Of a stretch of DNA of 64,000 nt, positions 3,667 to 19,414 are shown piece by piece. The translations under genes and the position numbers were made by a program. The stretch's first letter is position 1; the number at the start of each line of letters is the position of its first letter. The notes beneath the pieces were generated by a model. It had not been told where the DNA came from and did no database searches. It worked only from the letters and a program-made list of their open reading frames with translations. The DNA comes from Krasilnikoviella flava (GTDB lineage: Bacteria; Actinomycetota; Actinomycetes; Actinomycetales; Cellulomonadaceae). The stretch spans positions 496,001 to 560,000 of the forward strand of contig NZ_FUZQ01000001.1 in NCBI RefSeq assembly GCF_900167525.1, given 5' to 3'.

Positions 3667-5093
3667 GACGTCCCTCCCTGGGCCTGCCCGTCGTCGGGCG
3701 TGTGATGGATGCGGCGGGGCGCGGCCCGCTCCCGCAGCGCGGGGGCCACGGGCCTCCCGTCGAGGAACCCGTCGGTACCGCCCGCGTCGAGCGCGGCGGC
3801 GTAGACCGGCAGCACTCCCGCGACGGCCTCGACCGTCCGGTCGACGTCGGCGTCGGTGTGCGCGGCCGAGATCACGAACGACTGCGCCAGCACGCCGCGG
3901 CGCAGCAGCTCGGCGAGGAAGAGCGTGCGGTACGGCTGCGAGGGCTCGCCGGCGTGGTCGCGGGTGCCGAAGACCAGGCACGCGGGGTGCCCCGAGACCG
4001 TCACCCAGCCGGTCAGCCCGGCGGCGTCCACCACCTGCTGCACGCCGTCGCGCAGCCGCTCCCCCTGGGCGGCCATCACGGCGGGCACGTCGCGGGCCGC
4101 GTACTCGCGGTGCACCGCCAGCCACGCCGCGAGGCCCGCCGTCTCCGCGCCGTGCGTCGTGGAGAGCAGGAAGACGCGGCGCGCGTCGGTCGCGAGGCCG
4201 CCGAGCTCCATCAGCTCCCGGCGGCCCGCGAGCGCCGAGACGGCGAACCCGTTGCCGAGCGCCTTGCCCCAGGTCGACAGGTCGGGCACGACGCCGTACA
4301 CGGTCTGCGCGCCGCCGGCGGACCAGCGCATCCCGGTGATGATCTCGTCGAACACGAGCACCGTGCCGGTGCTGTCGCACAGGGCGCGCAGCCCTTCCAG
4401 GTACCCGGGCGGGGGGCTCGCGTGCGCGGTCGCGGCCTCGAGGACGACGGCGGCGACCCGGCCCTCGTGAGCGGCGAGCAGGGCCGCCACGGCAGCCAGG
4501 TCGCCGTAGGGGAAGCGGACCGTGAGGTCGGTGATCGCGCGCGGGACGCCCGCGTCCATCGGGGTGGTGCCGATGAACCAGTCGTCGGTGGAGAAGAACG
4601 GGTGGTCGGCGCAGACGGCGACCAGGTCGCGCCCGGTGGCGGCGCGGGCCAGGCGGACGGCAGCGGTGGTGACGTCGGAGCCGTTCTTCGCGAACTTCAC
4701 CATGTCGGCGCCGGGGACCTGCGCGCAGAACGCCTCGGCCGCCTCCAGCTCCCACGTGCTGGGCCGGGAGAAGCTCACGCCGTCGGCGGCCGCCGACGCG
4801 ACGGCGTCGACCACGGGCCGGAAGCCGTGGCCGAGCGTGACGCTGCGCAGCCCCATCCCGTACTCGACGTACTCGTTGCCGTCCACGTCCCACACGTGCG
4901 CACCCCTGCCGCGGACCAGCACCGGGGCCATGTGCTCGGGGTACTGGTCGGCGCCGCGGGCGTACGTGTGCGCCCCGCCCGGCACGAGTCGGTGCAGGCG
5001 GGCCTGCGCGGCCGTCGACCGGTCGAAGGACCGGACGGGCTCGGCGGGCTGCATCGGGTCGGGCTGTGGAGCCTGCTGCGTCAGCTGCGTCAT
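3663..5093 (-). CDS. Class III PLP aminotransferase, GSA-aminomutase-like
   Basis: 476 residues, fold-type I PLP enzyme. DEIITG at 249-254 holds the pyridine-N-binding Asp, and the Schiff-base lysine is Lys277 in STWGKALGNG. The N-terminal VPGGAHTYARGADQYPE segment is characteristic of glutamate-1-semialdehyde 2,1-aminomutase-like proteins found in sugar clusters. True HemL belongs to tetrapyrrole genes and is not expected here. The likely role is transamination of a keto-sugar or an attached side chain, which is inference. The ATG at 5093 is chosen because a GGGGG ribosome site lies about 8 nt upstream and the family alignment begins just after it. First gene of the leftward operon 5093-41. 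Confidence 0.8.
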   Translation of the reverse strand: MTQLTQQAPQPDPMQPAEPVRSFDRSTAAQARLHRLVPGGAHTYARGADQYPEHMAPVLVRGRGAHVWDVDGNEYVEYGMGLRSVTLGHGFRPVVDAVASAAADGVSFSRPSTWELEAAEAFCAQVPGADMVKFAKNGSDVTTAAVRLARAATGRDLVAVCADHPFFSTDDWFIGTTPMDAGVPRAITDLTVRFPYGDLAAVAALLAAHEGRVAAVVLEAATAHASPPPGYLEGLRALCDSTGTVLVFDEIITGMRWSAGGAQTVYGVVPDLSTWGKALGNGFAVSALAGRRELMELGGLATDARRVFLLSTTHGAETAGLAAWLAVHREYAARDVPAVMAAQGERLRDGVQQVVDAAGLTGWVTVSGHPACLVFGTRDHAGEPSQPYRTLFLAELLRRGVLAQSFVISAAHTDADVDRTVEAVAGVLPVYAAALDAGGTDGFLDGRPVAPALRERAAPRRIHHTPDDGQAQGGTS

Positions 5094-5205
5094 GGTGCCC
5101 CCGGATGCGGGTGGGGAGGTGGGTCGTGAAGCCTGGTGGGGCCGGCAGGGGGCCGGCCCCGCCGCCAGTCTGCGGCGAAGGCCCGGCGGCGTTGAAGGGC
5201 CCGAG

Positions 5206-5220
5206 GGCCTTTTCATCCGG
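5206..5220 (-). promoter_or_regulatory. Shared polysaccharide-cluster motif, copy A
   Basis: On the minus strand this reads CCGGATGAAAAGGCC, 113 nt upstream of the aminotransferase start at 5093, in the 181-bp gap between divergent starts (5093 and 5275). Close copies lie upstream of 9549 and of 19300 in the same orientation relative to their genes. It is probably a regulator-binding site or promoter element; function is inferred only from recurrence and position. Confidence 0.5.
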
Positions 5221-5274
5221 CGCCCGGGACGACTTCACCCGTCCGCTCCCGCGGCCCGTCCGTACGGTGTGGAC

Positions 5275-5841
5275 ATGCAGGTGCTGCCCACCACCCTCGA
5301 CGGGGTGCTGATCCTCGCCCCCACCCCGCACCGCGACGAGCGGGGCCTGTTCACGCGCACGTTCGACACCGCCACCGCGGCGCGCGCCGGTCTCGACCCG
5401 GCGGCCTTCGTGCAGGACAGCCAGTCCCGCTCGCGCCGCGGCGTGGTGCGCGGGCTGCACGGCCGCGTGGGCGGCGGGGAGGCCAAGCTGGTGCGCGTCG
5501 CGCACGGCGCCGTGCACGACGTCGTCGTCGACGCGCGGCCCGGCTCCCCCACGTTCGGGCGGTGGGAGGCGTTCCGGCTCGACGACGTCGACTTCCACGT
5601 CCTGTCCGTGCCGCGCGGCTGCCTGCACGGCCATCAGACCCTCACCGACACGGCCGACGTCTGCTACCGCATCGACGCCGAGCACGACCCGGCGGAGGAC
5701 GTCGCCGTGCACCACCTCGACCCCGACCTGGGGGTGGGGTGGCCCCTGCCGGTCTCGCTCGTCAGCGACCGCGACGCCGCCGCCGGGTCGTGGGCGGCGC
5801 TGGTCGCGACGCTCACCGGCGACGGCCCCGGTCGCGGCTGA
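5275..5841 (+). CDS. RmlC-like nucleotide-sugar 3,5-epimerase
   Basis: 188 residues, a cupin of the dTDP-4-dehydrorhamnose 3,5-epimerase family. Expected catalytic residues are visible: His62 in RGLH (59-62), Asp86 in VVVD, and Tyr131 in VCYRID; KLVRVAHGAVHDVVVDAR is the family's core strand pair. In CDP-sugar clusters homologues epimerise 4-keto-6-deoxy intermediates, so the true substrate may be a CDP- rather than dTDP-sugar. It is a single gene transcribed towards, and overlapping by 29 bp, the end of the leftward methyltransferase gene. Confidence 0.85.
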   Translation: MQVLPTTLDGVLILAPTPHRDERGLFTRTFDTATAARAGLDPAAFVQDSQSRSRRGVVRGLHGRVGGGEAKLVRVAHGAVHDVVVDARPGSPTFGRWEAFRLDDVDFHVLSVPRGCLHGHQTLTDTADVCYRIDAEHDPAEDVAVHHLDPDLGVGWPLPVSLVSDRDAAAGSWAALVATLTGDGPGRG

Positions 5842-7012
5842 GCGGCTCGACCTCGACGGGCTCGGGCTCCGCGACCACCCAGCGGCCCCCGAGCCCCTCG
5901 ACCTCGGGGTGCGCGGAGCGCACCTCGTCGAGCAGGTCCGGCACCAGCAGGAGCACCTTGTCGGGGCGGACCTCGGCGAGGATGTCCGCCCCGAGCACCG
6001 GCACGCGCGGCCCGGGCCCGCCGGGCATGGCACGGCCCCGCTTGGCGGGGGACGCGTCCACCACGGCGAGGACGTCGTCGGCGGTGACGCCCGCGAGCGC
6101 GAACAGCGCGACCGCCCGCGACGCCGCGCCGTAGGCGACGACCTTCCCCGTGCTCTCGTCGAGCCAGTCCCGCAGCGCCGCCGCCGACCGGGCCACCTGC
6201 CGCTGGAGCACCGCCACCGCGCGCGGCTCCGTCGCCCCTGCCGCGGCCTCGGCGGCCAGCTCGGTCGCGACGAGCTCCCCCGCGGACCCGGCGTGCGCCC
6301 GGGCGGGCTCCGAGCCCTCCCGCGCCAGCGCGAGCAGGCGCGTGCCGCCGTAGAGCGGGTACCGCCACAGCCCCACCGGGACGAGGCCGGTGCTGCGCGC
6401 CATCTCCACGAGCACCGTGAGCGAGTAGTACGCGAAGTGCCCGTGCCGCAGCGCGTTCCAGGTGCCGTCGCGCACGATCACCGACAGCGGGTGCACGTGC
6501 AGCGCCAGCACGCCGTCCGGGGCGAGGGAGTCGAGCCGCAGGTCCCACGCCGCCCGCTGGTCGGCCTCGTGCATGAGGCCGAGCGAGTCGACGACGAGGT
6601 CGGCCGCGAGCCCCGGCACCGTGCCATGGCCGTCCAGCAGCACCGCGTCGGGCACGATCTCCTGCACGCGCTCCAGCCAGGAGCCCCCGTGCGGGCTGCG
6701 CATCTCCGCCGCCCAGGTGCCGGGGCCCAGGAGCCCGCCCGCGACGAGGTCGGCCACTCCCGCCCGTGCCTGGGCGACCAGGGCGGCGGGCTCCACGCCG
6801 CGGGGCACCTCCGGGCCGGTCGGGTCCTCCTCGAGCTGGGCGAGGCGGCACCGGTCGCACATCACCATCCGCAGGGGGTGCACCGGGTCGGGGGCGGGCG
6901 CCTCCGGCTCCGGGAACAGGTCGGACGCGGGCTGGGCGCCCAGGTCGAGCACGACCGTGCCCCGGTCGGAACGGCACCACCGGCAGCGCCACCCGGGAAC
7001 GACGGCGCTCAC
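5813..7012 (-). CDS. Degenerate C-methyltransferase family protein
   Basis: 399 residues with the architecture of sugar C-methyltransferases: an N-terminal zinc-binding domain (Cys10, Cys13, Cys52, Cys55), a middle SAM-type domain and a C-terminal Rossmann-like domain (VVAYGAASRAVALFA). The SAM motif I that is clear in its neighbour (EVASNDG) is replaced here by WAAEMRSPHGG (100-110). The catalytic YHEH box is replaced by RHGH (189-192), so the Tyr and Glu are gone. It starts with GTG overlapping the neighbour's stop as GTGA, implying coupled synthesis. It may be an inactive partner subunit, or may do different chemistry. Last gene of operon 9353-5813. Confidence 0.75.
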   Translation of the reverse strand: MSAVVPGWRCRWCRSDRGTVVLDLGAQPASDLFPEPEAPAPDPVHPLRMVMCDRCRLAQLEEDPTGPEVPRGVEPAALVAQARAGVADLVAGGLLGPGTWAAEMRSPHGGSWLERVQEIVPDAVLLDGHGTVPGLAADLVVDSLGLMHEADQRAAWDLRLDSLAPDGVLALHVHPLSVIVRDGTWNALRHGHFAYYSLTVLVEMARSTGLVPVGLWRYPLYGGTRLLALAREGSEPARAHAGSAGELVATELAAEAAAGATEPRAVAVLQRQVARSAAALRDWLDESTGKVVAYGAASRAVALFALAGVTADDVLAVVDASPAKRGRAMPGGPGPRVPVLGADILAEVRPDKVLLLVPDLLDEVRSAHPEVEGLGGRWVVAEPEPVEVEPLSRDRGRRR

Positions 7013-8322
7013 GTGCCCGGCTCGAAGACCTCGAGGCGCGGCAGGAACGTCACCAGGCGGCCACCCCAGTCGGCGACGTGCGCGAGCTGGGCGGAGATCT
7101 CCCGCCGCAGGTTCCACGGCATGACGACGACGTAGTCCGGCCGCGCGGCGTCGAGCTCCTCCGGCGGGCGGATCGGCAGGTGCATGCCCGGCGTGAACCG
7201 GCCGTGCTTGTACGGGTTGCGGTCGACGGCGAACTCGACGAGGTCGGAGCGCACCCCGCAGTGGTTGAGCAGCGTGTTCCCCTTGCCGGGCGCCCCGTAC
7301 GCGACCACCCGCTTGCCCTCGCGGCGTGCGGTGAGCAGGAAGCGCAGCACGTCGTCGCGCACTGCGGCGACCTGCTCGGCGAAGCCTGCGTGCCCCTCCA
7401 CGGTGTGCAGCCCGGCGGCGGCCTCGGCGGCGAGCACGCGCGCGACGGCGTCCGACGGCTCCGGCGCCCCGGCGTCGGGCGTCGGCACCGACCAGGTGCG
7501 CAGCGACCCGCCGTGGCTGGGCAGCTCGTCCACGTCCACCACGGTGAGGCCGGCGGCGGCCAGCACCCGCTGCGTCGTGAGCAGCGACAGGTAGCTGTAG
7601 TGCTCGTGGTAGATCGTGTCGTACTCGTTGCCCTCCACCAGCCTCAGCAGGTGCGGGATCTCGATGGACACACGGCCGTCGTCGGCGACGAGCTGCCGCA
7701 GTCCGCGCGCGAAGTCGAGGATGTCCGGCACGTGCGCGAACACGTTGTTGGCCACGACGAGGTCGGCCGGGCCGTGCTCGTCCCGTACGCGCCGCCCCGT
7801 CTCCTCGCCGAGGAACTCGACGACCGTGGGGATGCCGCGCTCGACGGCGGCGGCGGCCACGTTCCCGGACGGCTCGATGCCCAGGCAGCGGATCCCGCGG
7901 CCGGTGACGTGCTGCAGCAGGTAGCCGTCGTTGCTCGCGACCTCGACCACGAACGACCGCTCGGGCGTGAGGCCGAGCCGCTCGACCGCGTCGTCGACGT
8001 ACCGGCGAGCGTGCTCCACCCACGACGCGGAGTAGGACGAGAAGTAGGCGTAGTCGTCGAAGATGTCCTCCGCCGGCACGTAGGCGGGCAGCTGCACCAG
8101 CAGGCACCGCTCGCAGACGCGCACGTGCAGGGGGTAGAACACCTCGGGCCCGTCGACCTGCTCGGCCGTCGGGTAGCTCTCGCACGGCGGCGACATCCCG
8201 AGGTCCACGAACGTGCGGGTCAGCGGCGCGCCGCACAGCCGGCACGACGGCGCGGACACGGCGGAACCCTCGGACGCGGACCCCGCGGGCGCGGCGTGGC
8301 GGGCCGCCGACACGGCGGTCAT
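7009..8322 (-). CDS. NDP-sugar C-methyltransferase
   Basis: 437 residues. Zinc-binding N-terminal domain (Cys27, Cys30, Cys70, Cys73), SAM-binding motif EVASNDG at 127-133, catalytic-type box YHEH at 238-241, and a C-terminal domain beginning near VVAYGAPGKGN. The family includes TylCIII, NovU and TcaB9, which put a methyl group on C3 (or C5) of 4-keto-NDP-sugars. The product is therefore probably a branched sugar of the surface polysaccharide. ATGA overlap with the SDR gene upstream and GTGA overlap with the degenerate paralogue downstream. The start at 8322 is preferred for the overlap. Confidence 0.88.
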   Translation of the reverse strand: MTAVSAARHAAPAGSASEGSAVSAPSCRLCGAPLTRTFVDLGMSPPCESYPTAEQVDGPEVFYPLHVRVCERCLLVQLPAYVPAEDIFDDYAYFSSYSASWVEHARRYVDDAVERLGLTPERSFVVEVASNDGYLLQHVTGRGIRCLGIEPSGNVAAAAVERGIPTVVEFLGEETGRRVRDEHGPADLVVANNVFAHVPDILDFARGLRQLVADDGRVSIEIPHLLRLVEGNEYDTIYHEHYSYLSLLTTQRVLAAAGLTVVDVDELPSHGGSLRTWSVPTPDAGAPEPSDAVARVLAAEAAAGLHTVEGHAGFAEQVAAVRDDVLRFLLTARREGKRVVAYGAPGKGNTLLNHCGVRSDLVEFAVDRNPYKHGRFTPGMHLPIRPPEELDAARPDYVVVMPWNLRREISAQLAHVADWGGRLVTFLPRLEVFEPGT

Positions 8323-9353
8323 GCCGGCACCGCCGTCGTGCGCAGGTTCTCGAGGTCGAGGGCGCCGGTGCCGGCCAGCTCGCTCACCCGGTGCAGGCGC
8401 ACGAAGCGGGGGCCCTCGAAGTCGTCGGCCGTGAGGCCGAACCGGTGGACGTCCTCCCAGATCTGCCGGATCCCGTCCGGCACCGTCCAGTGCGGCGCGG
8501 CGGCCGGCAGCTCGGCGCGGACGCGGGTGAAGTCCACCCGGTAGTTGCGGGTGTCGGCGCCCGCCCCGGCGGCGAACGTCACGGGGGCGCCGGTGATCTC
8601 GCTGACCTGCTCGGCGACCGTGCGGATCTGCACGACGTCTTCGTCCCGGCCCACGTTGAAGGCCCGGTCGTGCACCACCTCGCGGGGCGCCTCGAGCGCG
8701 GCGAGGAAGGCCCGCGCGATGTCCTCGACGTGCACGAGGGGCCGCCACGGCGTGCCGTCGGACGCGAGCCGCACCTCCCCGCGCGTGTACGCCGTGCCGG
8801 TGAGGTTGTTGACCACGATGTCGGCCCGCAGCCGCGGCGACGAGCCGTACGCCGTGGCGTTGCGCAGGAACGTGGGCGAGAAGTCGTCGTCCGCGAGCGC
8901 GGAGAGCCCGCGCTCCGCCTGGATCTTCGACTCCCCGTAGGGGGTGACGGGGTGGAACTCGGCGCCCTCGTCCACGGGCGCGTCGCCCGCCGCCCCGTAG
9001 AGGGAGCACGACGACGAGAACAGGAACCGGGTCACCCCCGCCGCCTTCGCCGCGCGGGCCATGCGCACGGCGCCGTCGGTGTTCACGGAGAACGTCGCCT
9101 GCGGGTTGAGGTGGCCCAGCGGATCGTTGGAGATGGCCGCGAGATGGATCACGGCGTCGAACCCGGCGAGGTCCTCGGGCCGCGCGTCCCGGACGTCGCC
9201 GGTGCGCTGCTCGTACCCCGTCACCGGCGGCCCGAAGTCGCAGCCGTCGTACCACCCGGCGTCCAGGCCCACCACCTCGTGGCCTGCCGCCTGCAGGAAC
9301 GGCACCAGCACCGCGCCCACGTACCCTCGGTCGCCATCGACGAGCACTCGCAT
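8319..9353 (-). CDS. NAD-dependent epimerase/dehydratase (extended SDR)
   Basis: 344 residues. The N-terminal Rossmann motif is GDRGYVG (Gly7, Gly10, Gly13), followed by the catalytic pair Tyr139-xxx-Lys143 in PYGESK and an upstream serine-rich strand SSSCSLYG. Extended SDRs of this kind act on nucleotide sugars as 4,6-dehydratases, 4-epimerases or 4-reductases. With a C-methyltransferase directly downstream, reduction of the 4-keto group after methylation is the most likely job, as in branched deoxysugar pathways; a dehydratase role is less likely because a DE catalytic pair is not evident. First gene of operon 9353-5813. Confidence 0.82.
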   Translation of the reverse strand: MRVLVDGDRGYVGAVLVPFLQAAGHEVVGLDAGWYDGCDFGPPVTGYEQRTGDVRDARPEDLAGFDAVIHLAAISNDPLGHLNPQATFSVNTDGAVRMARAAKAAGVTRFLFSSSCSLYGAAGDAPVDEGAEFHPVTPYGESKIQAERGLSALADDDFSPTFLRNATAYGSSPRLRADIVVNNLTGTAYTRGEVRLASDGTPWRPLVHVEDIARAFLAALEAPREVVHDRAFNVGRDEDVVQIRTVAEQVSEITGAPVTFAAGAGADTRNYRVDFTRVRAELPAAAPHWTVPDGIRQIWEDVHRFGLTADDFEGPRFVRLHRVSELAGTGALDLENLRTTAVPA

Positions 9354-9466
9354 GGTCCGTCCCCCGTCGTCGTCCGGCCGGCCCGACGGGCTGGGGAGCC
9401 CCGAGCCGGTGGCTTCTCAGCCGCCTCGACGCTAACCAGCGGGCGCCTCCCACCGTGAGGGTTGCC

Positions 9467-9495
9467 CGGGGTGAAAAGCCTCGTCACCCGGGTGA
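9467..9495 (+). promoter_or_regulatory. Shared polysaccharide-cluster motif, copy B, plus palindrome
   Basis: At 9467-9481 the plus strand reads CGGGGTGAAAAGCCT, a 12/15 match to the motif upstream of 5093 and 19300. It is followed at 9484-9495 by the perfect palindrome TCACCCGGGTGA. The pair sits 54-82 nt upstream of the ATG at 9549, in the 195-bp gap separating the divergent operons. Likely operator or promoter for the rightward operon. Confidence 0.5.
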
Positions 9496-9548
9496 TTCCG
9501 CGCCTGCGGCGTTCCGCGCCCGCACCCCGGCGGCGAGGATCGGGAACC

Positions 9549-11576
9549 ATGAGGGTCCTGCGCATCTCCCACAGCGCGGTGGTCGACGCCTGGCGCGGCC
9601 GCGAGGTCGAGCTGCGCCGGCACGGCGATCACGTCCGCGTCCTCACGGCCGCCGTCTGGGACGAGGGCGGCCGGGACGTCCGCCCCTCGCCGGCGCCCGA
9701 CGAGGAGCTCGAGACCGCACGGACCCTCGGCCGCCACCCCGCCCTCTTCCTCTACGACCCGCGGGCGCTGTGGCGGGTGCTCGGCGAGCCGTGGGACGTG
9801 CTCGACATCCACGAGGAGCCGGTCGCGCTCGCCACCGCCGAGATCCTGGGCCTGCGCGCGGTGCGGCGGTTCGTCGACGCCGCGCGCGGGCGCCGCGCCC
9901 GCCCCGCGCCCTACCTGCTCTACTCCGCGCAGAACCTGCTCAAGCGGTACCCGTGGCCGTTCCGCGCGCTCGAGGCCGCCGCGCTGCGCGGCGCCGCCGC
10001 CGTCGTCACGTGCAACCACGACGCCGCCCGCATCGTGCGCTACAAGGGGGCCCGGGGCCTGGTGCAGCGCATCCCCCTCGGCCTGGACACGACGCGCTTC
10101 ACGCCGTCGACGGCGCGGGCCGACGACCCGGCACCGGGCCGGGTGCGCGTCGGGTACGCGGGGCGCCTCACCACCCAGAAGGGGGTGGACGTGCTGCTCG
10201 CGGCCGTCGCCCGGGACGAGTCCCTGGGGCTCGTGGTGGCGGGCGCCGGCCCGGAGGAGGTACGGCTGCGGCGGGCCGCCGCCCCGCTGGGCGACCGGGT
10301 GACCTTCCTCGGCCCGCTGGACACCGACGACCTCCCCGCGTTCTACCGCGGGCTGGACGTGCTCGTCGTGCCGTCGGTGGAGACGCCCGGGCTCGCCGAG
10401 CAGTTCGGCCGGGTCGTGGTGGAGGCGATGGCGTGCGGCACGCCCGTGGTGGCGACCCGGGTCGGCTCCGTCCCGGACGTCGTCGCCGGCGCCGGCGTCC
10501 TCGTGGCGCCGGGCGACCCGGCGGCGCTGCTGGACGGCATCCGGCAGGCGACGCGGCCGCAGACCGCGCGCGTGCTGCGCCTGGCCGGGCTCGACCGGGC
10601 CCGGGAGTGCTCGTGGCCGGAGGTCGCCGGGCGGTACCGCGCGGTCTACGCGGCGTGCCGCGGCACGACGACGGACGACCACGGCGTCACCGCGCGCGGT
10701 GGCGCGGACCACCGGCCGGCGCCCCGCATCGAGGTCGTCGTCGTCGCCTACGGCCGCCCGGAGCTGCTGCGCGCCGCGCTCGAGCCGCTGGCCGGCACGT
10801 TCCCTCTGACGGTCGTCGACAACTCGTCCGACCCGCGGCACCGCGCGATCACCGAGGCCTGCGGCGGCGTCTACCACGACCCGGGGCGCAACCTCGGGTT
10901 CGCCGCGGCGGTCAACATGGCGCTCGCGCACCGGCAGGACCCGGGGGCCGACGTGTTCCTGCTCAACCCGGACGCCGTCGTCGGGCCGGACGCCGTCGCG
11001 GCGCTCCACGACGCCCTGCACGCGGACCCCGGCCTCGCGAGCGTCGGCCCGGCCCAGGTCGACGGCGACGGACGGCCCGGCCGCGTGGTCTGGCCGTTCC
11101 CCTCCCCCGCCCGGGCCTGGCTCGAGGCCGCCGGCCTGGGCCGGTTCCGGATCCCGGGGGAACGCTCCTTCGTGATCGGGTCGGCCCTGCTGGTCCGCGC
11201 CGAGGCGCTGCGCAGCGTGGGCGCCCTCGACGAGCGGTTCTTCCTCTACGCCGAGGAGACCGACTGGGCCTACCGGGCCGACCGGCGCGGCTGGCGGCAC
11301 GCCGTCGTGGAGACCACGAAGGTCCTGCACGAGGGCGCCGGCACGAGCACCGACGACCGGGTGCGGGAGCTGCACTTCCACGCCTCGCAGGAGCGGTACC
11401 TGCGCAAGCACTACGGTGCGGCGGGGTGGGCCGCCGCCCGCGCCGCGCTCGTCGCGGGCGCGGCGCTGCGGTCCGCCGCGCTCCGCGGCCCTGGCCGGCG
11501 GCACGCGCAGCGCCGGCTGCGCACCTACCTCGGCGGGCCCACGGCGCTGGAGGGCCGCGAGGTGGCGGCCTCGTGA
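9549..11576 (+). CDS. Bifunctional glycosyltransferase, GT4-GT2 fusion
   Basis: 675 residues with two transferase domains. Residues about 1-375 form a GT4-type (GT-B) domain with GYAGRLTTQKGVDVLL and the EQFGRVVVEAMACGTPVV loop. Residues from about 392 form a GT2-type (GT-A) domain of the rhamnosyltransferase/GlfT-like branch, with VVVAYGRPELLRAAL, LLNPDAVV and EETDWAYRADRRGW. A linker near 370-390 separates them. One polypeptide could add two consecutive sugars. The ATG at 9549 is preferred over upstream starts because GT4 homology begins immediately (MRVLRISHSAV) and a purine-rich GAGGATCGGGAA precedes it. First gene of the rightward operon. Confidence 0.85.
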   Translation: MRVLRISHSAVVDAWRGREVELRRHGDHVRVLTAAVWDEGGRDVRPSPAPDEELETARTLGRHPALFLYDPRALWRVLGEPWDVLDIHEEPVALATAEILGLRAVRRFVDAARGRRARPAPYLLYSAQNLLKRYPWPFRALEAAALRGAAAVVTCNHDAARIVRYKGARGLVQRIPLGLDTTRFTPSTARADDPAPGRVRVGYAGRLTTQKGVDVLLAAVARDESLGLVVAGAGPEEVRLRRAAAPLGDRVTFLGPLDTDDLPAFYRGLDVLVVPSVETPGLAEQFGRVVVEAMACGTPVVATRVGSVPDVVAGAGVLVAPGDPAALLDGIRQATRPQTARVLRLAGLDRARECSWPEVAGRYRAVYAACRGTTTDDHGVTARGGADHRPAPRIEVVVVAYGRPELLRAALEPLAGTFPLTVVDNSSDPRHRAITEACGGVYHDPGRNLGFAAAVNMALAHRQDPGADVFLLNPDAVVGPDAVAALHDALHADPGLASVGPAQVDGDGRPGRVVWPFPSPARAWLEAAGLGRFRIPGERSFVIGSALLVRAEALRSVGALDERFFLYAEETDWAYRADRRGWRHAVVETTKVLHEGAGTSTDDRVRELHFHASQERYLRKHYGAAGWAAARAALVAGAALRSAALRGPGRRHAQRRLRTYLGGPTALEGREVAAS

Positions 11577-12976
11577 GCGCCGCCGGGCGCCGGGTCGCCC
11601 TCCCCACCGGCCTCCGCGCCGGCCTGTGGACGACGACCCGCGCCACCACCTGGGCGGCCGTCCTCGTGGTCGCCGTCCTCGGTGTCACGTACGTGCTCGC
11701 CCACGACCTCACGCTCGGGGTGGCCGCCGCGACCCTCGTCGCCCTCGCCGGTGTCACCCTCTACGACCCGTCGCTCGTGCCGGTGGTCGCGATGCCCGCG
11801 TTCGTCGTCTCCGACCGGATCGGCGGCGACAGCCTGAACATGACGCTCAGCGACGTGGCGCTGTTCGGCGCGTTCTGGGTGGCCCTCCTCTTCTCGCCAC
11901 GCCCCTTCACCCCCGCGCTGCGGTCGATGCTGTGGCTCTCGGCGATCTATCAGCTCGCCTCCCTGTTCGCCGTCGTCGCCACGCCCTTCCGCCAGAACAC
12001 GGTCGAGTGGTTCCACGCCTGGGTCCTAGTCGGTGGAGCGCTCGTCGTCGGCTGGGCGGTGGGCCGGTCCGGGCGCGCGACGCTCGGGCTGACGCTCCTC
12101 ACCCTCGCCACCCTGGTGGTCGCGCTGAACGCCTGCGCGCTGGCCGCGGTGCAGCTCGCCCAGGGCGACGTGTCGCCGGTCTACCCGAACTGGCCGCTCG
12201 CGATGCACAAGAACCTCGCGGGCCCGATCTTCATGTCGGTCGCGCTCGTCGCGTTCGTCCGGCAGCCCTGGCTGCACTGGCCGGCGTGGTTCCGCATCCC
12301 CGCGTTCTACGTGCTCGTGCTCGGCCTGATGGCCGTGCAGTCCCGGCAGGCGATCGTCGGCCTCGGCGTCGGCCTGATCGTCCTCGCGCTGCGCGCGGGC
12401 CACGGCCGCCACTGGTCCCCGATCCTCATGCTGCTCACCATGGCCCCGGCGGCGATCTTCGTCGCGAGCCGGGTCCAGGACGACCTCTCCGGCGACGACC
12501 CGTTCAACTCCACGGCGTTCCGCGTCGCGGGGATCGCGGGCGGCTTCGACGTCTGGCGGGAGAACCCGTGGTTCGGCGCCGGCCTGCGGTGGTGGAGCTC
12601 CGGGCCCGTGGCCGGGTTCCAGCCGCCCAACGCGGTCGCGGAGGTGCTGTCCTCCGTCGGCGTCGTCGGCCTCGCGGGGTTCGCGGTCCTCATGCTGGGC
12701 ACCCTGGTGGTCGCGTGGCGGATGGACCGCCGGTTCGGCACGCTCGCCGTCGCGCTGCTCGCGTCCCGCCTCGTCGCGAGCCAGTTCGACCAGTTCTGGG
12801 TCTCGATCATCGTGTCCCTGCCGTTCCTGCTGGTGGGCGTGTGCCTGGGGGCGGAGGGACTCGACAGGCAGTCGGGCACCCGCGACGTCCGGCACGGACA
12901 GGTCGGCGGGGACGCGCCGCCGCCGAACGTGCCGAGCCCCCGCTCGGACGCGGCGCTGCAGACGGAGGCGTCATGA
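11573..12976 (+). CDS. Wzy-like polysaccharide polymerase / O-antigen ligase family membrane protein
   Basis: 467 residues with roughly ten to twelve hydrophobic segments. The periplasm-facing loop around residues 300-370 (FRVAGIAGGFDVWRENPWFG followed by GLRWW) carries the Wzy_C-like WxxxPxxGxG pattern of O-antigen ligases and polymerases. Such proteins polymerise or transfer lipid-linked repeat units on the outer face of the membrane. The C-terminal 50 residues are hydrophilic and low in complexity. GTGA overlap with the GT fusion upstream and ATGA overlap with the GT4 downstream. Confidence 0.8.
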   Translation: MSAAGRRVALPTGLRAGLWTTTRATTWAAVLVVAVLGVTYVLAHDLTLGVAAATLVALAGVTLYDPSLVPVVAMPAFVVSDRIGGDSLNMTLSDVALFGAFWVALLFSPRPFTPALRSMLWLSAIYQLASLFAVVATPFRQNTVEWFHAWVLVGGALVVGWAVGRSGRATLGLTLLTLATLVVALNACALAAVQLAQGDVSPVYPNWPLAMHKNLAGPIFMSVALVAFVRQPWLHWPAWFRIPAFYVLVLGLMAVQSRQAIVGLGVGLIVLALRAGHGRHWSPILMLLTMAPAAIFVASRVQDDLSGDDPFNSTAFRVAGIAGGFDVWRENPWFGAGLRWWSSGPVAGFQPPNAVAEVLSSVGVVGLAGFAVLMLGTLVVAWRMDRRFGTLAVALLASRLVASQFDQFWVSIIVSLPFLLVGVCLGAEGLDRQSGTRDVRHGQVGGDAPPPNVPSPRSDAALQTEAS

Positions 12977-13998
12977 GGATCACCCACGTCGTCGTGACCG
13001 ACGCGTTCGCCGGGGTCGAGGCCCACGTCGCCCGGCTCGCCAGGGCCCAGGCCGACGCGGGGCACGACGTCGCCGTGGTCGGCGGTGCCGCGGCCTCGAT
13101 GTCCGGTGCCGCCGGTGACGCCGTCGAGCTCCGGCCGGGCACCACCGTGGCCGAGGCCCGCCGGTCGCTCGCCGAGGGAGCCCGGCCCGACGTCGTGCAC
13201 GCCCACATGACGGCGGCCGAGACCGCGGCCTGCCTCTGGGCACCGGTGCTCGCACGGCGTGTGCCGCTCGTCGTCACGCGGCACTTCGCCCTCGTCCGCG
13301 GCCGCAGCCTCGCCGGCCGAGCCGTCGCGCACGTCATCCGCCGGACGGTGGCCGCGCAGATCGCGATCAGCCGGTACACGAGGGAGCGGATCGACGGTCC
13401 CAGCGAGGTGATCGTCGCGGGCGTCGAGGAGCGGCCCCACCCGCGCGTCTCCGCGCTCAGGTCGCCCGTGGTGCTCGTCGCGTCCCGCCTCGAGCCGGAG
13501 AAGCACGTGGACGCCGGCGTCCGCGCCTTCGCCGCGTCGGGCCTCGCCATCGCCGGCTGGCGGCTTCGGATCGCCGGGTCGGGCTCGCTCGAGGTCGCGA
13601 CCAAGGAGCTGGTGGCCAGGTTCGGGCTCGACCGCGCCGTCGACCTGCTCGGGCACCGCAGCGACGTCGCCGCCCTGATGGCCGACGCGTCGATCTTCCT
13701 CGCCCCGACCCCCGGCGAGCACTTCGGGCTCAGCGTGCTCGAGGCGATGGCGAGCGGCGTCCCGGTGGTGGCGGACGGCTCCGGCGGGCACGTCGAGTCG
13801 CTCGGCCGCGCCGGGGGTCCCGGCCTGTACGCCACGGGCGACGCCGACGACGCGGGGCGGCGGCTGCGTGCCCTCGCCGAGGACCCCGCGCTGCGCGACC
13901 GCTACGGCGCCGCCCTGCAGGCCCGGCAGCGGGCCGAGTTCTCCCTCGCCCACCAGGCCGCCGCCACCGAACGCGTGTACCGGGACGTGCTGCCGTGA
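12973..13998 (+). CDS. Family 4 glycosyltransferase
   Basis: 341 residues, GT-B fold. The N-terminal domain opens with ITHVVVTDAFAGVEAHV (donor/acceptor cleft of GT4). The C-terminal domain holds VVLVASRLEPEKHVDAGV and the EHFGLSVLEAMASGVPVV loop near residues 247-264, whose two glutamates bind the nucleotide sugar in this family. No membrane segment; probably peripheral on the inner membrane face. Coupled to both neighbours by 4-bp overlaps. Donor specificity unknown. Confidence 0.87.
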   Translation: MRITHVVVTDAFAGVEAHVARLARAQADAGHDVAVVGGAAASMSGAAGDAVELRPGTTVAEARRSLAEGARPDVVHAHMTAAETAACLWAPVLARRVPLVVTRHFALVRGRSLAGRAVAHVIRRTVAAQIAISRYTRERIDGPSEVIVAGVEERPHPRVSALRSPVVLVASRLEPEKHVDAGVRAFAASGLAIAGWRLRIAGSGSLEVATKELVARFGLDRAVDLLGHRSDVAALMADASIFLAPTPGEHFGLSVLEAMASGVPVVADGSGGHVESLGRAGGPGLYATGDADDAGRRLRALAEDPALRDRYGAALQARQRAEFSLAHQAAATERVYRDVLP

Positions 13999-15179
13999 AC
14001 CCGGCCCGGGAGACCGTCGTCGGCCCCGACCTCGTCGTCGTGTCGCTCGAGCCGTGGGACCACGTCTGGCGGCGCAACCAGCACCTCGTCGCGGGGCTCC
14101 TGCGCGAGCGCCCGTCGGCGCGGGTGCTCTTCGTCGAGCCGGTCGGCGACCCCCTGCACGCGATCACCCGCGGCGCGTGGCCGCGGCCCGGGCGGGGGCT
14201 GCGGCCCGCCCCCGACGTCGAGGGGGTCGGCCCCCGCCGGCTGTGGCTCCTCGAGCCGACCAAGCTGCTCCCCCGGCGGGTCGCCCCGCACGGCGACGAG
14301 CGGCGCGCGGCCGTCGTCGTCCGCGCCGCGCGCCGCCTCGGGCTGGCGCGGCCGGTGCTGTGGGTCAACGACCCCTACGGCGCCACCCTGGCCCGCGTCA
14401 GCGGCTGGCCGACCCTGTACGACGTCACCGACGACTGGACCGCCGCGTCGCGCGGCTCGGCCGAGTCGCGACGCGTCCTGGACGGCGACCGGTACCTCGT
14501 GGAGCACGCCGCCACCGTCACCGTCTGCTCGCCCACCCTGGCGGCCCGCAAGGCCGACGCCCGCTCGGTCGTGCTCGTGACCAACGGCGTCGACGTCGAG
14601 CGGTACCGGCGCCCCGTCCCCCGCCCGGCGGACCTGCCGGCCGGCGGCACGGCCGTCTACGTCGGCACGCTGCACGCCGACCGGCTCGACGTCGCGCTGT
14701 GCGAGGAGACCGCCCGCGCGCTCGACGGCGTCGGCACGCTGGTGCTCGTCGGCCCGGTCGCGCTGGAGCGCCCCGACGTCGACCGGCTGCGCCGCGCGGG
14801 CGTGGCGGTGCTCGGCGCCCGGCCGTTCGACGAGGTGCCCGCGTACCTGCAGCACGCCGAGGCGCTCGTCGTCCCGCACGTCGTCGACGAGTTCACCGAC
14901 AGCCTCGACCCGCTCAAGCTCTACGAGTACCGGGCGGTGGGGCGGCCCGTCGTGTCGACCCCGGTGGCGGGCTTCCGCGACACGAGCGACCCGCGCGTCG
15001 CCGTCGCCGGGCGGGAGGACTTCGCCGCCGCCGTGCGCGACGCGCTCACCGTCCCCGCGCCCGCCCCGGCCACCGCGGAGGACGCCGGCGCCGAGCCGAT
15101 CCCCAGCTGGACGCGCCAGGTCGCCCTCATGTCCGACGTCGTCGACGCCGTCCTGCCACCCGCTCCCACACCTCGGTGA
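13995..15179 (+). CDS. Glycosyltransferase, GT4-like (TuaH type)
   Basis: 394 residues. The N-terminus (LVVVSLEPWDHVWRRNQHLV) and the middle PTLYDVTDDW segment are typical of the TuaH/GT-B proteins seen in teichuronic acid and exopolysaccharide loci. The C-terminal motif SLDPLKLYEYRAVGRPVVST (about 297-316) is the family's equivalent of the E-x7-E loop. It starts with GTG overlapping the upstream stop as GTGA. Its 3' end overlaps by 53 bp the convergent glycosyltransferase gene, so the two operons terminate into each other without a spacer. Confidence 0.82.
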   Translation: MNPARETVVGPDLVVVSLEPWDHVWRRNQHLVAGLLRERPSARVLFVEPVGDPLHAITRGAWPRPGRGLRPAPDVEGVGPRRLWLLEPTKLLPRRVAPHGDERRAAVVVRAARRLGLARPVLWVNDPYGATLARVSGWPTLYDVTDDWTAASRGSAESRRVLDGDRYLVEHAATVTVCSPTLAARKADARSVVLVTNGVDVERYRRPVPRPADLPAGGTAVYVGTLHADRLDVALCEETARALDGVGTLVLVGPVALERPDVDRLRRAGVAVLGARPFDEVPAYLQHAEALVVPHVVDEFTDSLDPLKLYEYRAVGRPVVSTPVAGFRDTSDPRVAVAGREDFAAAVRDALTVPAPAPATAEDAGAEPIPSWTRQVALMSDVVDAVLPPAPTPR

Positions 15180-16332
15180 CGGCCCGCGCGGTCTCGCGGG
15201 CGGGAAACCGGCGGGTCGCGTCGTCGTATGCCGCCCGGGCCCGCCGCTCGGCGCCGCCCGGGTCGTCCAGCACGGTCAGGAGCCCGGCGGCGAGCGCCTC
15301 CGGGTCGCCCGGCGGCACGAGCACGCCCAGGTCCCGGCCCAGCGGCCGGACGATCTCCGGGACCCCGCCGGCGTCGGTCGCCACCACGGGGACCCCGCGC
15401 ACCATCGCCTCGACGACCACCTGGCCGAACGGCTCCGGGACGGGCGAGGCGTGCACGCACACCGACAACCGGTCGAGCTCGGCGGCCGGGTCGTCGCTGA
15501 ACCCGACCACGTCCACGGCGCCGCGCAGCCCGAGCCGGCCGATCTCCGCGTCGACGGCCACCGCGTAGTCGTCGGCGCCGAAGAGCGCTCCCCCGACCAG
15601 GCGGAAGCGCACGTCGGGGCGGCGGTCGAGCACCGTGCGCGCCGCGCGGACCAGCTCCAGCTGGCCCTTGGTGGGGCTGATCCGGCCGACCAGGCCCACC
15701 ACCGGGAGCTCCGGCGGCACCCGCGCCTCGAAGGTGGCGACCGCCTGCTCGGGCGCGTAGCCGGGGTGGACGACGGTCAGGTCGCGCACCCCCGGCAGCG
15801 TCCCGGCGGTCGCCCGCGAGTTCGCGACGACGGCCCGTGGGCCGCGGCGGGCCAGCGCGCGCAGCAGCCGGACGGCGGTCGAGGGAAGGTAGTCGGGGGC
15901 GACCCGGTCGTGCACGTGCCACACCACCGGCACCCGGCACCACCGGGCCGCGAGGAGCCCCACGACGTCGGCGCGCAGCGAGTTGGTGTGCACCACGTCG
16001 GCGTCCGCGCGACGGAGCACGCCGGCCACCCGGACCACGAGCCGCACGGTCTCACCCACCGCGAGCACGGCTCGCCAGGAGCCGGCGAGCGCGTGCCGGT
16101 CCATGACGCGCGACCGCGCCCCCGCCCGGACCACCACGGTCCGCACGCCCGCCGCCCGCAGCCTGGCCACGAACGGGCCGTCGTCCAGCACGATCGCCCG
16201 GAGCTCGACGCGTCGCGGGTCGAGCTCCGCGGCGAGCCGGAGCAGCGCCAGCTCCCCGCCGCCCAGCGCCGCGGTGTGGTCGACGACGACCACGCGCAGG
16301 GGCCCCTCCCTGCCGCCCCGGCGGGCGGTCAC
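15127..16332 (-). CDS. Family 4 glycosyltransferase
   Basis: 401 residues, GT-B fold. The N-terminal VVVVDHTAALGGGELALLRL is the glycine-rich donor loop, VVGLVGRISPTKGQLELV starts the C-terminal domain, and EPFGQVVVEAMVRGVPVV near residue 300 is the nucleotide-sugar loop. GTG start overlapping the stop of the Wzz-like gene as GTGA. Last gene of the operon 19300-15127, so it probably builds the same polymer as the chain-length regulator upstream. Acceptor and donor unknown. Confidence 0.87.
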   Translation of the reverse strand: MTARRGGREGPLRVVVVDHTAALGGGELALLRLAAELDPRRVELRAIVLDDGPFVARLRAAGVRTVVVRAGARSRVMDRHALAGSWRAVLAVGETVRLVVRVAGVLRRADADVVHTNSLRADVVGLLAARWCRVPVVWHVHDRVAPDYLPSTAVRLLRALARRGPRAVVANSRATAGTLPGVRDLTVVHPGYAPEQAVATFEARVPPELPVVGLVGRISPTKGQLELVRAARTVLDRRPDVRFRLVGGALFGADDYAVAVDAEIGRLGLRGAVDVVGFSDDPAAELDRLSVCVHASPVPEPFGQVVVEAMVRGVPVVATDAGGVPEIVRPLGRDLGVLVPPGDPEALAAGLLTVLDDPGGAERRARAAYDDATRRFPARETARAVTEVWERVAGRRRRRRT

Positions 16333-18146
16333 GGCCGGCGCGCGGTGCGCAGGAGCCGGCCGATCGTGGGCGCGACCTGCGCGGGCGTCGGCGGCTCGTC
16401 CTGCGCGGCCGTCGGGACGGGCGACGCGACGGTCCCCACCCGGACCCCCGTGGGCGGGAACACCGGCGGCCGGGCCGGGGTCGTGCCCTCCCGCGCAGGG
16501 GTGACGCGCTCGGGGGCGGCGTCGCCCTCCGGGGCACCCGGGCGCTCCGGGGACGCGTCGTCGTCCACCTTGCTCGCGGCGGACGGGTCGACGTCGGAGG
16601 GGTCGGTGTCGGCAGGAGCGGTGTCGGACGGGTGGGTGTCGGACGGGTGGGTGTCGGACGGGTCGCCCTCGTGGGGCTCGCCGTAGGTCGAGGCGTAGAC
16701 CATCCGGCTGTCGCCCTTCACGCCGGCGAGCGCGACGCCGGTGAGCGGCACGCCGTTGATCCGCAGCCGCTCCGCGGCCTCGGCCAGGACGCTGCGCGCG
16801 GTCCGGCCCGCGGTCGTGACGAGCACGACGCAGTCCGCGAAGGCACCGAGGATCGTGGCGTCCGCGGCCGCGAGCACCGGCGGCGCGTCGATGACGAGCA
16901 CCTCGGCCGCGTCCCGGGCCGCCTCGACCGTCGCGCGGACCCGGTCCGTCGCCAGGTAGTCCGCGGGGTCCATCGTCGGGTCGTAGAGCGCGAGGAAGCG
17001 CAGGTTGGGCACCTGCGTGGGGCGCAGCCCGTCCGGGTCGGTCCCCGGGCCGTTCGTGCGCGGCAGCAGGCCCTCCAGGTCCGGCCGGCGCAGGTCGCCC
17101 GACACCGCGACGGTGGCCCGCCCGCTCATCGCCCACGACGCCGCGAGGTTGGCGGCGATGAACGACCGCGGTGCGTGCGGGTCGGTGGCGGTCACGACGA
17201 CCACGGCGTGCTCGCGGTCCTGCATCGCCACGTGCAGGGCGGTGCGCAGCTCCCGGATCGACTCGGTGAACGGCGAGGCCACCCGGCTCGAGATCGGCAG
17301 CACCGGCGTGCGGCGGTACGACCTGGCGGCCTTGGTCACCCCGTAGAGCTCGGCGAGCACGGGCACGCCCGCGGCGACGGCGGCGTCGGACCGGCCACGC
17401 AGCCGGGAGTCCAGCGCGCGCCGTGCCAGGGCGAGCCCGATGCCGATCGCGAGCCCGGCGAGCGCACCCAGGAGGACGATGCTGGCCCGGGGCAGCCCGA
17501 CGACCACGGCCGACGAGCCCGTCGCCGGGACGAGCACCTGCGCGGGGGTCACGATCGACTCCAGGGTGCTCCGGCTCGCCGACAGGGTCTGGTACTGGTC
17601 GATGATCGTGGAGCGCTCCGCGCCCGCCAGGGGGTCCTTCGGCGCGTCCTTCACCTGCTTGTCCACGGTGTCGAGCTGGTCGCGCAGGGCGTCGCGCCGG
17701 GCGTCGATCTCGGTGATCTGGTCGTCGATGACGCCGGGCAGGCTGTCGACGTACGCGGACGCGACCCCGTTGGCCAGCTCGACCGCGCCGCCCGGGGTGC
17801 CCGCCGTGGTGGTGACGGTCATGATCCCGGTGGTGGCGTCGAACACTCCCGACACCTGGGCGGCGAGCGCCTTCGGGTCCGCCCCGGCGGCCACGGCCTT
17901 GCCGGCCGTCTGGAGCACGCCGGGGGCCTCGACGAGGCCGGGGTCGGTGTCGACGCTGGTCGTGGTGGCCGCCGGGGTCGTGCTGTCGCCCAGGTCGACC
18001 GAGTTGATCTGGACGGTGGCGGTCGCCTCGAACACCTCGGGCTTGCGGTCCGCGTAGACGGTCGCCGCCGCCAGGGCGAGCACGATCGAGGCGACGAGGA
18101 AGTACTTGCCCTCCCACATCACCCGCAGGAACTCTCGAACGGTCAT
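16329..18146 (-). CDS. Wzz-type chain-length protein fused to a degenerate BY-kinase domain
   Basis: 605 residues. Membrane segments at about 14-32 and 210-232 flank a Wzz-like extracytoplasmic domain (about 35-205). The cytosolic half matches bacterial tyrosine kinases in order but not in key residues: the P-loop region reads TATDPHAPRSFIAAN (about 314-328) with no GKT/S, and the Walker A' VDADLRRP is VSGDLRRP. Walker B (VLVIDAPPV, about 413) is intact. The tail has no tyrosine cluster, only Asp/Ser/Thr/Pro repeats. The protein probably still sets chain length or scaffolds polymerisation but is unlikely to bind ATP normally. ATGA overlap with the upstream GT4. Confidence 0.83.
   Translation of the reverse strand: MTVREFLRVMWEGKYFLVASIVLALAAATVYADRKPEVFEATATVQINSVDLGDSTTPAATTTSVDTDPGLVEAPGVLQTAGKAVAAGADPKALAAQVSGVFDATTGIMTVTTTAGTPGGAVELANGVASAYVDSLPGVIDDQITEIDARRDALRDQLDTVDKQVKDAPKDPLAGAERSTIIDQYQTLSASRSTLESIVTPAQVLVPATGSSAVVVGLPRASIVLLGALAGLAIGIGLALARRALDSRLRGRSDAAVAAGVPVLAELYGVTKAARSYRRTPVLPISSRVASPFTESIRELRTALHVAMQDREHAVVVVTATDPHAPRSFIAANLAASWAMSGRATVAVSGDLRRPDLEGLLPRTNGPGTDPDGLRPTQVPNLRFLALYDPTMDPADYLATDRVRATVEAARDAAEVLVIDAPPVLAAADATILGAFADCVVLVTTAGRTARSVLAEAAERLRINGVPLTGVALAGVKGDSRMVYASTYGEPHEGDPSDTHPSDTHPSDTAPADTDPSDVDPSAASKVDDDASPERPGAPEGDAAPERVTPAREGTTPARPPVFPPTGVRVGTVASPVPTAAQDEPPTPAQVAPTIGRLLRTARRP
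16621..16664 (-). repeat. 15-bp in-frame minisatellite in the Wzz/BY-kinase-like gene
   Basis: Three near-identical copies of GTGTCGGACGGGTGG (plus strand) at 16621, 16636 and 16651 encode repeated DTHPS-type pentapeptides in the cytosolic tail, followed by diverged DTDPSDVDPS units. Copy number could change by slippage without breaking the frame. Confidence 0.75.
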
Positions 18147-19300
18147 CGGCCCTCGATCTCCCTGTGCGTGCCCGACACCCCGGCGACCGCGACCTCCTGC
18201 GCCACCACGGCCTGGAGCCGGGCGACGAACGCGTCCCGGGAGAACCCCTTCACGTGCACCCCGATGGCCTCCTGGTCCCAGGAGCGCGCCAGCGCGGCCT
18301 CGATCCCCTCGGCGACGGGCGCCGCCTCGGGGCTCTCCACGTACAGGCCCGTCACGCCGTCGACGACGGTGTCGAGGTAGCCGCCCGTGCCGAGCGTCAC
18401 CGCGGGCACGCCGAACGCCGCAGCCTCCAGCGGCGTCAGGCCGTAGTCCTCGTAGGACGTCGCCACGAGCAGCGACGCGTGGGCGTACAGCCAGCGCAGC
18501 TGCGCGTCGTCGACCTTGCCGACGAACCGCACGCCGTTCCCCGCCAGCCGCTCGAGCCGCTCGCGGTCGGGGCCGACGCCGACGACCACCAGGGGCAGGC
18601 GCAGGCGCCGGGCGGCCGCGACGACGACGTCGACGTTCTTGTACGGCAGGAGCCGCGCCACGCAGAGCAGGTAGCCCGGGGCCAGACCGGGCACGGCGGC
18701 GGCAGGGCCGTCGGGATCCATCGCGGGCGGGGGCGGGACCACCTCGGCCTCGATGCCGTACACCTCCTGGACGGCCCGTCGGGCCACCGTGGAGACGGCG
18801 AGGTACACGTCCGCTCGTGCGGCGGCGTCCGCGTCGGACCTCCGCAGGCCGGGGCCGAGGAGGTCGAGCGCCGACCCGGCGAGCCCCGTGCGCCACAGGT
18901 CCTTCCACGTCCGGCCGGACGCCCCGGAGAGGTACCTGTCCCGCTGGTACAACCAGCGGGCGGGCGCGTAGCAGTACACGACGGTGCGCCGGGCGCCGCG
19001 GTAGCGGTGCGCCCAGCCGCTCGAGCTGGCGAGCAGCACGTCGGCGTCGACGGGCTGGCTCTCGACCGCACCCCGCAGCAGCGGCAGGGCCAGCCGGTGG
19101 TTGCGCCGCAGCGGCCCGACCCGGTCCAGTCGCGACGGACGCACGTCCACCTCGGCGAACTCGGGGAACGTCCCGTCCGGGTGGTACAGCGTCGTGTAGA
19201 GCGGCGCCGACGGGAAGGCCTGGGCCATCGTCAGCGCCACCCGCTCGGCGCCGCCGCGCTGGGTCAGGTAGTCGTGCGCCAGTGCCACCGTCGGGCCCAT
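18143..19300 (-). CDS. Family 4 glycosyltransferase
   Basis: 385 residues, GT-B fold. The N-terminal VALAHDYLTQRGGAERVAL is the classic WbaZ/mannosyltransferase-type opening. YLLCVARLLPYKNVDVVV begins the C-terminal domain, and EDYGLTPLEAAAFGVPAV near residue 288 is the sugar-nucleotide loop. The ATG at 19300 has a strong GAGGAGGA ribosome site 5 nt upstream. First gene of the leftward operon 19300-15127, with motif copy C 75 nt upstream of the start. Mannosyltransferase activity is a guess from the opening motif. Confidence 0.87.
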   Translation of the reverse strand: MGPTVALAHDYLTQRGGAERVALTMAQAFPSAPLYTTLYHPDGTFPEFAEVDVRPSRLDRVGPLRRNHRLALPLLRGAVESQPVDADVLLASSSGWAHRYRGARRTVVYCYAPARWLYQRDRYLSGASGRTWKDLWRTGLAGSALDLLGPGLRRSDADAAARADVYLAVSTVARRAVQEVYGIEAEVVPPPPAMDPDGPAAAVPGLAPGYLLCVARLLPYKNVDVVVAAARRLRLPLVVVGVGPDRERLERLAGNGVRFVGKVDDAQLRWLYAHASLLVATSYEDYGLTPLEAAAFGVPAVTLGTGGYLDTVVDGVTGLYVESPEAAPVAEGIEAALARSWDQEAIGVHVKGFSRDAFVARLQAVVAQEVAVAGVSGTHREIEGR

Positions 19301-19375
19301 GGTTCCTCCTCGTGCGGACGGTCGAGACCGCCCGTCGAGCGTAAGGAGACCAGGGCACGGAATGGGCCCTGTGGA

Positions 19376-19393
19376 GGCCTTTCCACCCGGGTG
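19376..19393 (-). promoter_or_regulatory. Shared polysaccharide-cluster motif, copy C
   Basis: On the minus strand 19390-19376 reads CCGGGTGGAAAGGCC, 75 nt upstream of the ATG at 19300. It overlaps the palindrome CACCCGGGTG (19384-19393), the same palindrome core seen beside copy B. The 114-bp gap otherwise separates the polysaccharide operon from pth. Confidence 0.5.
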
Positions 19394-19414
19394 AAGAGCC
19401 CGGTCAGGCCCCGT

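Follow-up and report, generated by a model that had tools for sequence, protein, structure and literature searches.

What links the scattered and opposing operons of a surface-polysaccharide cluster in Krasilnikoviella flava is the question raised by a window of 64,000 nt from its genome (C10:496001-560000, the whole stretch that was analysed, in a genome of 4.85 Mb in 10 contigs). An earlier note on this DNA had pointed to a 15-bp motif upstream of three operons, referred to here as A, B and C, and had read it as a cluster-specific regulator site or an alternative sigma-factor promoter. The element is real, but its boundaries were wrong and its scope too narrow: the motif is best read as one half of the operator of a transcription activator for surface-polysaccharide and secreted-protein operons, a reading to which we give a probability of about 0.8.

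The 15-mer itself proved to be an unsuitable unit. It is exact to CCGGRTGRAAAGGCC at A (5206-5220, minus strand) and C (19376-19390, minus strand) but not at B, where the copy at 9466/9467 has three mismatches in an ungapped alignment and only the 12-nt core GGGTGAAAAGCC (9469-9480) is common. The palindrome described as joined to copies B and C was recovered at both places as CACCCGGGTG (9485-9494 and 19384-19393). Allowing up to three mismatches, the window has 12 matches to the 15-mer against 7.04 expected by shuffling, a count attained in 8 of 100 shuffles, so that the loose consensus by itself falls short of significance. Exact copies are rare (three places in the genome). Within the 3-kb locus of the third, at C7:148594, none of the open reading frames (ORFs) called is a polysaccharide gene; by eye, the first clear ORF downstream resembles a histidine phosphatase. 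The 15-mer was rejected as the operator unit on the basis of a genome scan at up to two mismatches (37 matches, the reversed control giving 41) and a scan of relatives at up to one mismatch, which gave no clear excess. It fuses one half-site with a species-specific flank, and relatives retain GGRTGA half-sites, not CCGGRTGRAAAGGCC.

The conserved unit is the half-site CGGRTGA(A/T), which is mostly paired and is kept in the orthologous promoters of the genus. At site A, the proximal half-site GGATGAA (5212..5218, minus strand) lies inside the previously described copy, while the distal GGGTGAA (5234..5240, minus strand), 22 nt upstream of it, had been overlooked. At site B, the described copy corresponds to the distal half-site GGGTGAA (9469..9475, plus strand); the overlooked proximal half-site GGGTGAT (9490..9496, plus strand) follows as a direct repeat 21 nt downstream and forms TCACCCGGGTGA with an extra inverted half-site (9484..9489, minus strand, TCACCC on the plus strand). 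At site C, the proximal half-site GGGTGGA (19382..19388, minus strand), inside the described copy, makes CACCCGGGTG with the distal inverted GGGTGAA (19389..19395, plus strand). Chance does not account for the direct-repeat pairs at A and B: the window has two, and each of 100 dinucleotide shuffles has none.

Conservation was read from the DNA 5' of the first-gene orthologues in a sample of 18 genus genomes (A 13, B 16 and C 16 genomes). For B, 15 of the 16 loci were displayed, L148 being left out as a partial match, and half-site counts were made on 14, with L139 (misplaced start) also omitted. Per 200 nt upstream, GGRTGA occurs 2.0 times at A, 2.0 at B and 2.1 at C (13, 14 and 16 promoters), compared to 0.14-0.17 in coding sequence, and the reversed pattern matches only twice across the same 43 promoters. 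Among 83 sites, GGRTGA is preceded by C in 89% and followed by A in 65% or T in 16%; only these flanking letters carry independent information, because the sites were selected by GGRTGA. Strict half-sites form a 21-nt direct repeat in 8 of the 14 B promoters, two of which, from this species and its nearest relative, carry the additional inverted copy between the direct half-sites; two more promoters have GGGTGG as the distal copy at the same spacing. At A, the half-sites are 21-22 nt apart in 5/13 promoters and 32 nt apart in 6/13, the others having one palindrome and one single half-site in range. At C, TCACCCGGGTGA is present in 10/16 promoters, TTCACCCGGGTGGA in four including that of this genome, and other arrangements in two. 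The same element therefore stands at the orthologous promoters of relatives, as is expected of an activator-controlled regulon, and the proposal of a shared cis-element linking scattered, opposing operons is borne out.

Across the genus sample, the direct-repeat pattern GGGTGAW-N13-15-GGRTGAW gave 93 matches in all 18 genomes against four for its reversed control, and the palindrome was matched 41 times (37 places) across 17 of the 18 genomes, its control never. Of 121 sampled family genomes, 92 have a slightly narrower direct repeat among the matches listed, a figure that overstates the regulon because it includes the recurrent coding match GGGTGAACTG.CG.GAGTACTGGATGAA.

The distance between operator and core promoter is fixed. 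From the proximal half-site, a −10-like hexamer follows at 46 nt in A (CAGACT, 5167..5172, minus strand) and at 45 nt in B (GAGGAT, 9535..9540, plus strand) and C (TACGCT, 19338..19343, minus strand). By pattern, a hexamer at 45-46 nt is found in 11/13 A, 13/14 B and 12/16 C promoters, and the sequences of two further C promoters have it at 45 (L062) and 44 nt (L070). The rule was examined on 48 other direct-repeat sites from this genus and other family genera. These remained from 112 unique sites after removal of 20 in predicted ORFs, 36 without a same-strand start 40-320 nt downstream, seven from the A/B footprints and the own-genome site A (L002); their loci came from search results and from regions picked from the genus palindrome, genus repeat and family repeat lists (for the family, among the matches listed), and were fetched before the distance rule was noticed. 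TAxxxT occurs seven times at offset 45 and five times at 46, whereas the other offsets average 0.125. The relaxed xAxxxT occurs nine and six times, respectively, against a mean of 0.91 and at most 4/48 at any other offset from 8 to 67, and none of 2000 shuffles matched its summed count at 45 and 46. In the 42 non-redundant sites, the xAxxxT counts are seven at 45 and six at 46. The inside-ORF set gave 4/20 at offset 45 but is not a clean control, because some of its members are A/B sites within wrong ORF calls. The fixed distance thus extends from A, B and C to 15 of the 48 other sites, as in an activator regulon.

The genes behind the sites are rich in polysaccharide functions. Operon A begins with a class-III aminotransferase (3663..5093, minus strand; PF00202) and operon B with a two-domain glycosyltransferase (9549..11576, plus strand; PF13692, PF00535). 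The first gene of operon C encodes a glycosyltransferase (18143..19300, minus strand) whose nearest named relative found is from Isoptericola sp. QY 916 (90% identity); it is accompanied by a second gene (16329-18146) with Wzc/tyrosine-kinase-like similarity below cut-offs and by a further gene (15127-16332). The element is not cluster-specific, as had been supposed: in this genome, paired half-sites also precede secreted-protein genes elsewhere, and a direct repeat precedes an initiating sugar transferase (PF02397) on the same contig, ~160-175 kb away. In the initiating sugar transferase promoter at L290:3966 and downstream (minus strand) and at L301:4140, some four half-sites follow one another, with spacings that differ from 21 nt. 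Another direct repeat lies left of the window between genes that resemble, by eye, a GDP-sugar dehydratase and a PAP2 protein (for a protein in L296 resembling the latter, PF01569 remained below cut-off), a palindrome separates a DUF4012 gene from that of a secreted-looking protein, and sites stand before two more secreted-looking proteins.

For the 15 test sites with a −10 at 45/46, 12 downstream proteins were scanned. Six are of polysaccharide type (two PF02397 initiating sugar transferases, WbsX, an ABC transporter, an acyltransferase and a glycosyltransferase), and the remaining six comprise one LamG/PKD protein, two asparagine-synthase-like proteins and three without a family. Of seven proteins scanned at hand-picked sites among the other 33, two are glycosyltransferases and one matches a glycerophosphotransferase weakly; the remainder are a phosphotyrosine phosphatase, a PqqD protein, a LamG protein and one without a family. 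By family assignment only, matrix-polysaccharide or surface targets are therefore found at A, B, C, the sugar transferase and 7 of the 12 scanned proteins with a −10. In three genomes, a perfect dyad TTCACCCGGGTGAA separates a prolyl-oligopeptidase-like gene from a conservon-like operon of HATPase, roadblock, DUF742 and GTPase genes (L310:4357, L311:4227, L312:12230; domains tested in one genome).

Taken together, these features suggest the following mechanism. The activator would recognise the half-site CGGRTGA(A/T), two of which make up an operator, either as direct repeats about 21, 22 or 32 nt apart, bound on the same helix face, or as a contiguous palindrome. The proximal half-site would start at about −57 relative to the transcription start and 45-46 nt ahead of the −10, while the position of the distal one varies; the predicted starts are ~5160 (minus), ~9547 (plus) and ~19331 (minus). 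Bound there, the activator would touch RNA polymerase at promoters whose −10 resembles TAxxxT. Scattered surface-polysaccharide and secreted-protein operons would be switched on together, so that the motif probably marks a common on-switch for the outer coat of the cell. In this operator grammar, one half-site is locked to the promoter and the other is free in orientation and spacing. It would amount to a concrete code for the regulation of surface-polysaccharide and secreted-protein genes within one actinobacterial family, one that predicts transcription starts within a few bases and allows candidate members of the regulon, genes of unknown function among them, to be read from sequence. Among the matches listed, the literature on CsgD/BldD sites and on the exopolysaccharide of Isoptericola and Cellulosimicrobium gave no account of this element.

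The geometry also bears on the other explanations of the motif. If the 15-mer belonged to an alternative sigma-factor promoter, as the earlier note had offered, its position upstream of genes and pointing at them would fit; nevertheless, what is conserved is a half-site that recurs in either orientation, the −10-like hexamer is 45-46 nt away instead of the ~17 nt expected downstream of a motif at −35, and no hexamer peak is seen at the spacing of a −35 box. A proximal half-site 45-46 nt before the −10, near −57, is therefore in the position of an activator and not of a sigma −35 box, and a sigma-factor promoter is extremely improbable. The same distance is the argument against repressor operators that are derepressed by a signal. 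Palindromes are common among such operators and do occur here, but the sites lie upstream of the predicted core promoter rather than over it, at a fixed distance, which is activator geometry; we accordingly infer activation and regard repression as unlikely.

Two further proposals keep a DNA-binding regulator and change its class. In the first, a variant of the favoured reading, the activator would be a phosphate regulator of the OmpR type, PhoP/RegX3, whose half-site GTTCACC (reverse complement GGTGAAC) resembles the unit found here, the spacings of 21-22 and 32 nt being near-helical. However, PHO boxes are runs of 11-nt units, while the GGRTGA spacings at A, B and C are 6, 15, 17, 21-25, 32 and 41 nt, with none of 11; contiguous palindromes would be unexpected, and no phosphate-starvation gene was recognised beside the inspected sites by eye, such genes not having been searched for. 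This variant is very unlikely. A BldD-like XRE protein is less probable still. The BldD box, TNACNC-W-GNGTNA, agrees in its letters with TCACCC/GGGTGA half-sites but places them around one central base, which the palindrome here lacks (zero spacer), and the sites at A and B are direct repeats. The domain BldD-like_C (PF21179) was not matched in this genome; the absence of BldD does not follow, because the control genomes gave no match either.

Several observations weigh against the activator reading. At C, the palindrome is missing from G007 and G009, and the C footprint is found in 22 of 80 named loci (Isoptericola, Cellulosimicrobium, Oerskovia and one Promicromonosporaceae metagenome-assembled genome), being absent at two labelled Oerskovia flava and Cellulosimicrobium cellulans DE0111. 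Sixteen of the 93 genus repeat matches are three recurrent coding sequences, whose representatives lie in genes, leaving 77; the own-genome direct repeats C7:205412 and C9:113551 likewise lie within coding sequence and are probably unrelated to the regulon. Some palindromes also fall in coding sequence. In an order sample of 297 genomes, the palindrome occurs in 90; outside the genus, 84 of 291 genomes carry it, so part of its signal is background missed by the reversed control. The hexamers at A, B and C were initially chosen by eye, which is the reason for the test on the 48 other sites; 33 of these have no xAxxxT at 45/46, and some of the genes behind them show, by eye, no obvious connection with the cell surface.

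The regulator of these operons is likely a helix-turn-helix (HTH) protein of the LuxR/NarL type. In the sister genus g29, a direct repeat stands 77 nt (from the proximal half-site to the start) upstream of a gene for a 78-aa stand-alone LuxR-type HTH protein (L316:3175-3411), and near-identical repeats are present in four further g29 genomes (sequence matches only). One orthologue of this protein is found in each of the 18 genus genomes (69-84% identity, E below 1e-25), weaker matches being the LuxR domains of larger proteins. The own copy, of 77 aa (L386:4991-5224, plus strand), follows gcvP, gcvT and gcvH (names by eye), and the DNA upstream of it in other genomes resembles the end of gcvH, again by eye. 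It carries PF00196, its best solved relatives are GerE (1fse, E 1e-8), ChrA and VpsT, and its NCBIfam matches include CsgD, far below the cut-off of that model. This GerE-like protein is accordingly put forward as a lead candidate. Against it, the genus promoters of its gene lack the GGGTGA pair and share only a recurrent GCGTCATGAA-like element, and the g29 site has no hexamer at 45/46. A more far-reaching proposal, which is speculative and rather doubtful, is that the 77-aa protein, a DNA-binding domain alone with no sensor or receiver, may be the surface-matrix master activator of the family, a counterpart of CsgD/VpsT that would read paired CGGGTGAA half-sites, one locked to the promoter and the other inverted or shifted by whole helical turns. 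A MalT-like LuxR protein (749 aa, L385:5143-7392, plus strand), encoded to the left of the polysaccharide region and ~43-45 kb left of the window start, was set aside, as nothing connects it to the sites.

An activator regulon is a known kind of system. CsgD of E. coli and VpsT of Vibrio cholerae, LuxR-type master regulators of the biofilm matrix, likewise govern a regulon whose scattered members serve the matrix polysaccharide and the cell surface. The CsgD box, CGGGKGAKNKA, has CGGGTGA in common with the half-site described here; the string of this box was not found in the literature searched. The passages of PMC3535384 consulted give no CsgD box. VpsT recognises a degenerate palindrome (PMC8754643). 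Unlike these systems, the present one belongs to another phylum, combines variable half-site pairing with one fixed −10 distance and has an HTH domain alone as its lead candidate. GerE, the small LuxR-type HTH protein that is the best solved relative of this candidate, acts in sporulation. The box of PedR, another small LuxR-type HTH protein, is RWWTRGGYNNYY (PMC13421787), whose RGGY fits the GGGT core of the half-site; PedR serves cyanobacterial redox control, and neither GerE nor PedR is known to be linked to polysaccharide. The NarL-family heptamer TACYYMT (PMC4886647) is likewise a 7-nt half-site, and its reverse complement AKRRGTA holds RRGT, which is compatible with GGGT, while the flanking bases and target genes of NarL sites differ from those here. 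The GGGT core agrees with the boxes of both related regulators, PedR and NarL.

A few minor observations concern the surroundings of the sites. In one genome (G007), a 258-aa membrane protein, MHYT-like by eye, starts 66 nt from a direct repeat (L285:1529), but the repeat points away from it. In several genomes, asparagine-synthase-, PqqD- and ABC-transporter-like genes with small companions stand beside the polysaccharide cluster (L177/L176, window −24.7 to −19.6 kb; L292, L293, L298, L300 and L304), several with the same operator, and look like a lasso-peptide-like gene set. Within the polysaccharide region, a stretch of weaker coding signal with PadR- and TetR-like genes by eye (L176, window −15.2 to −9.7 kb) is possibly an insertion.

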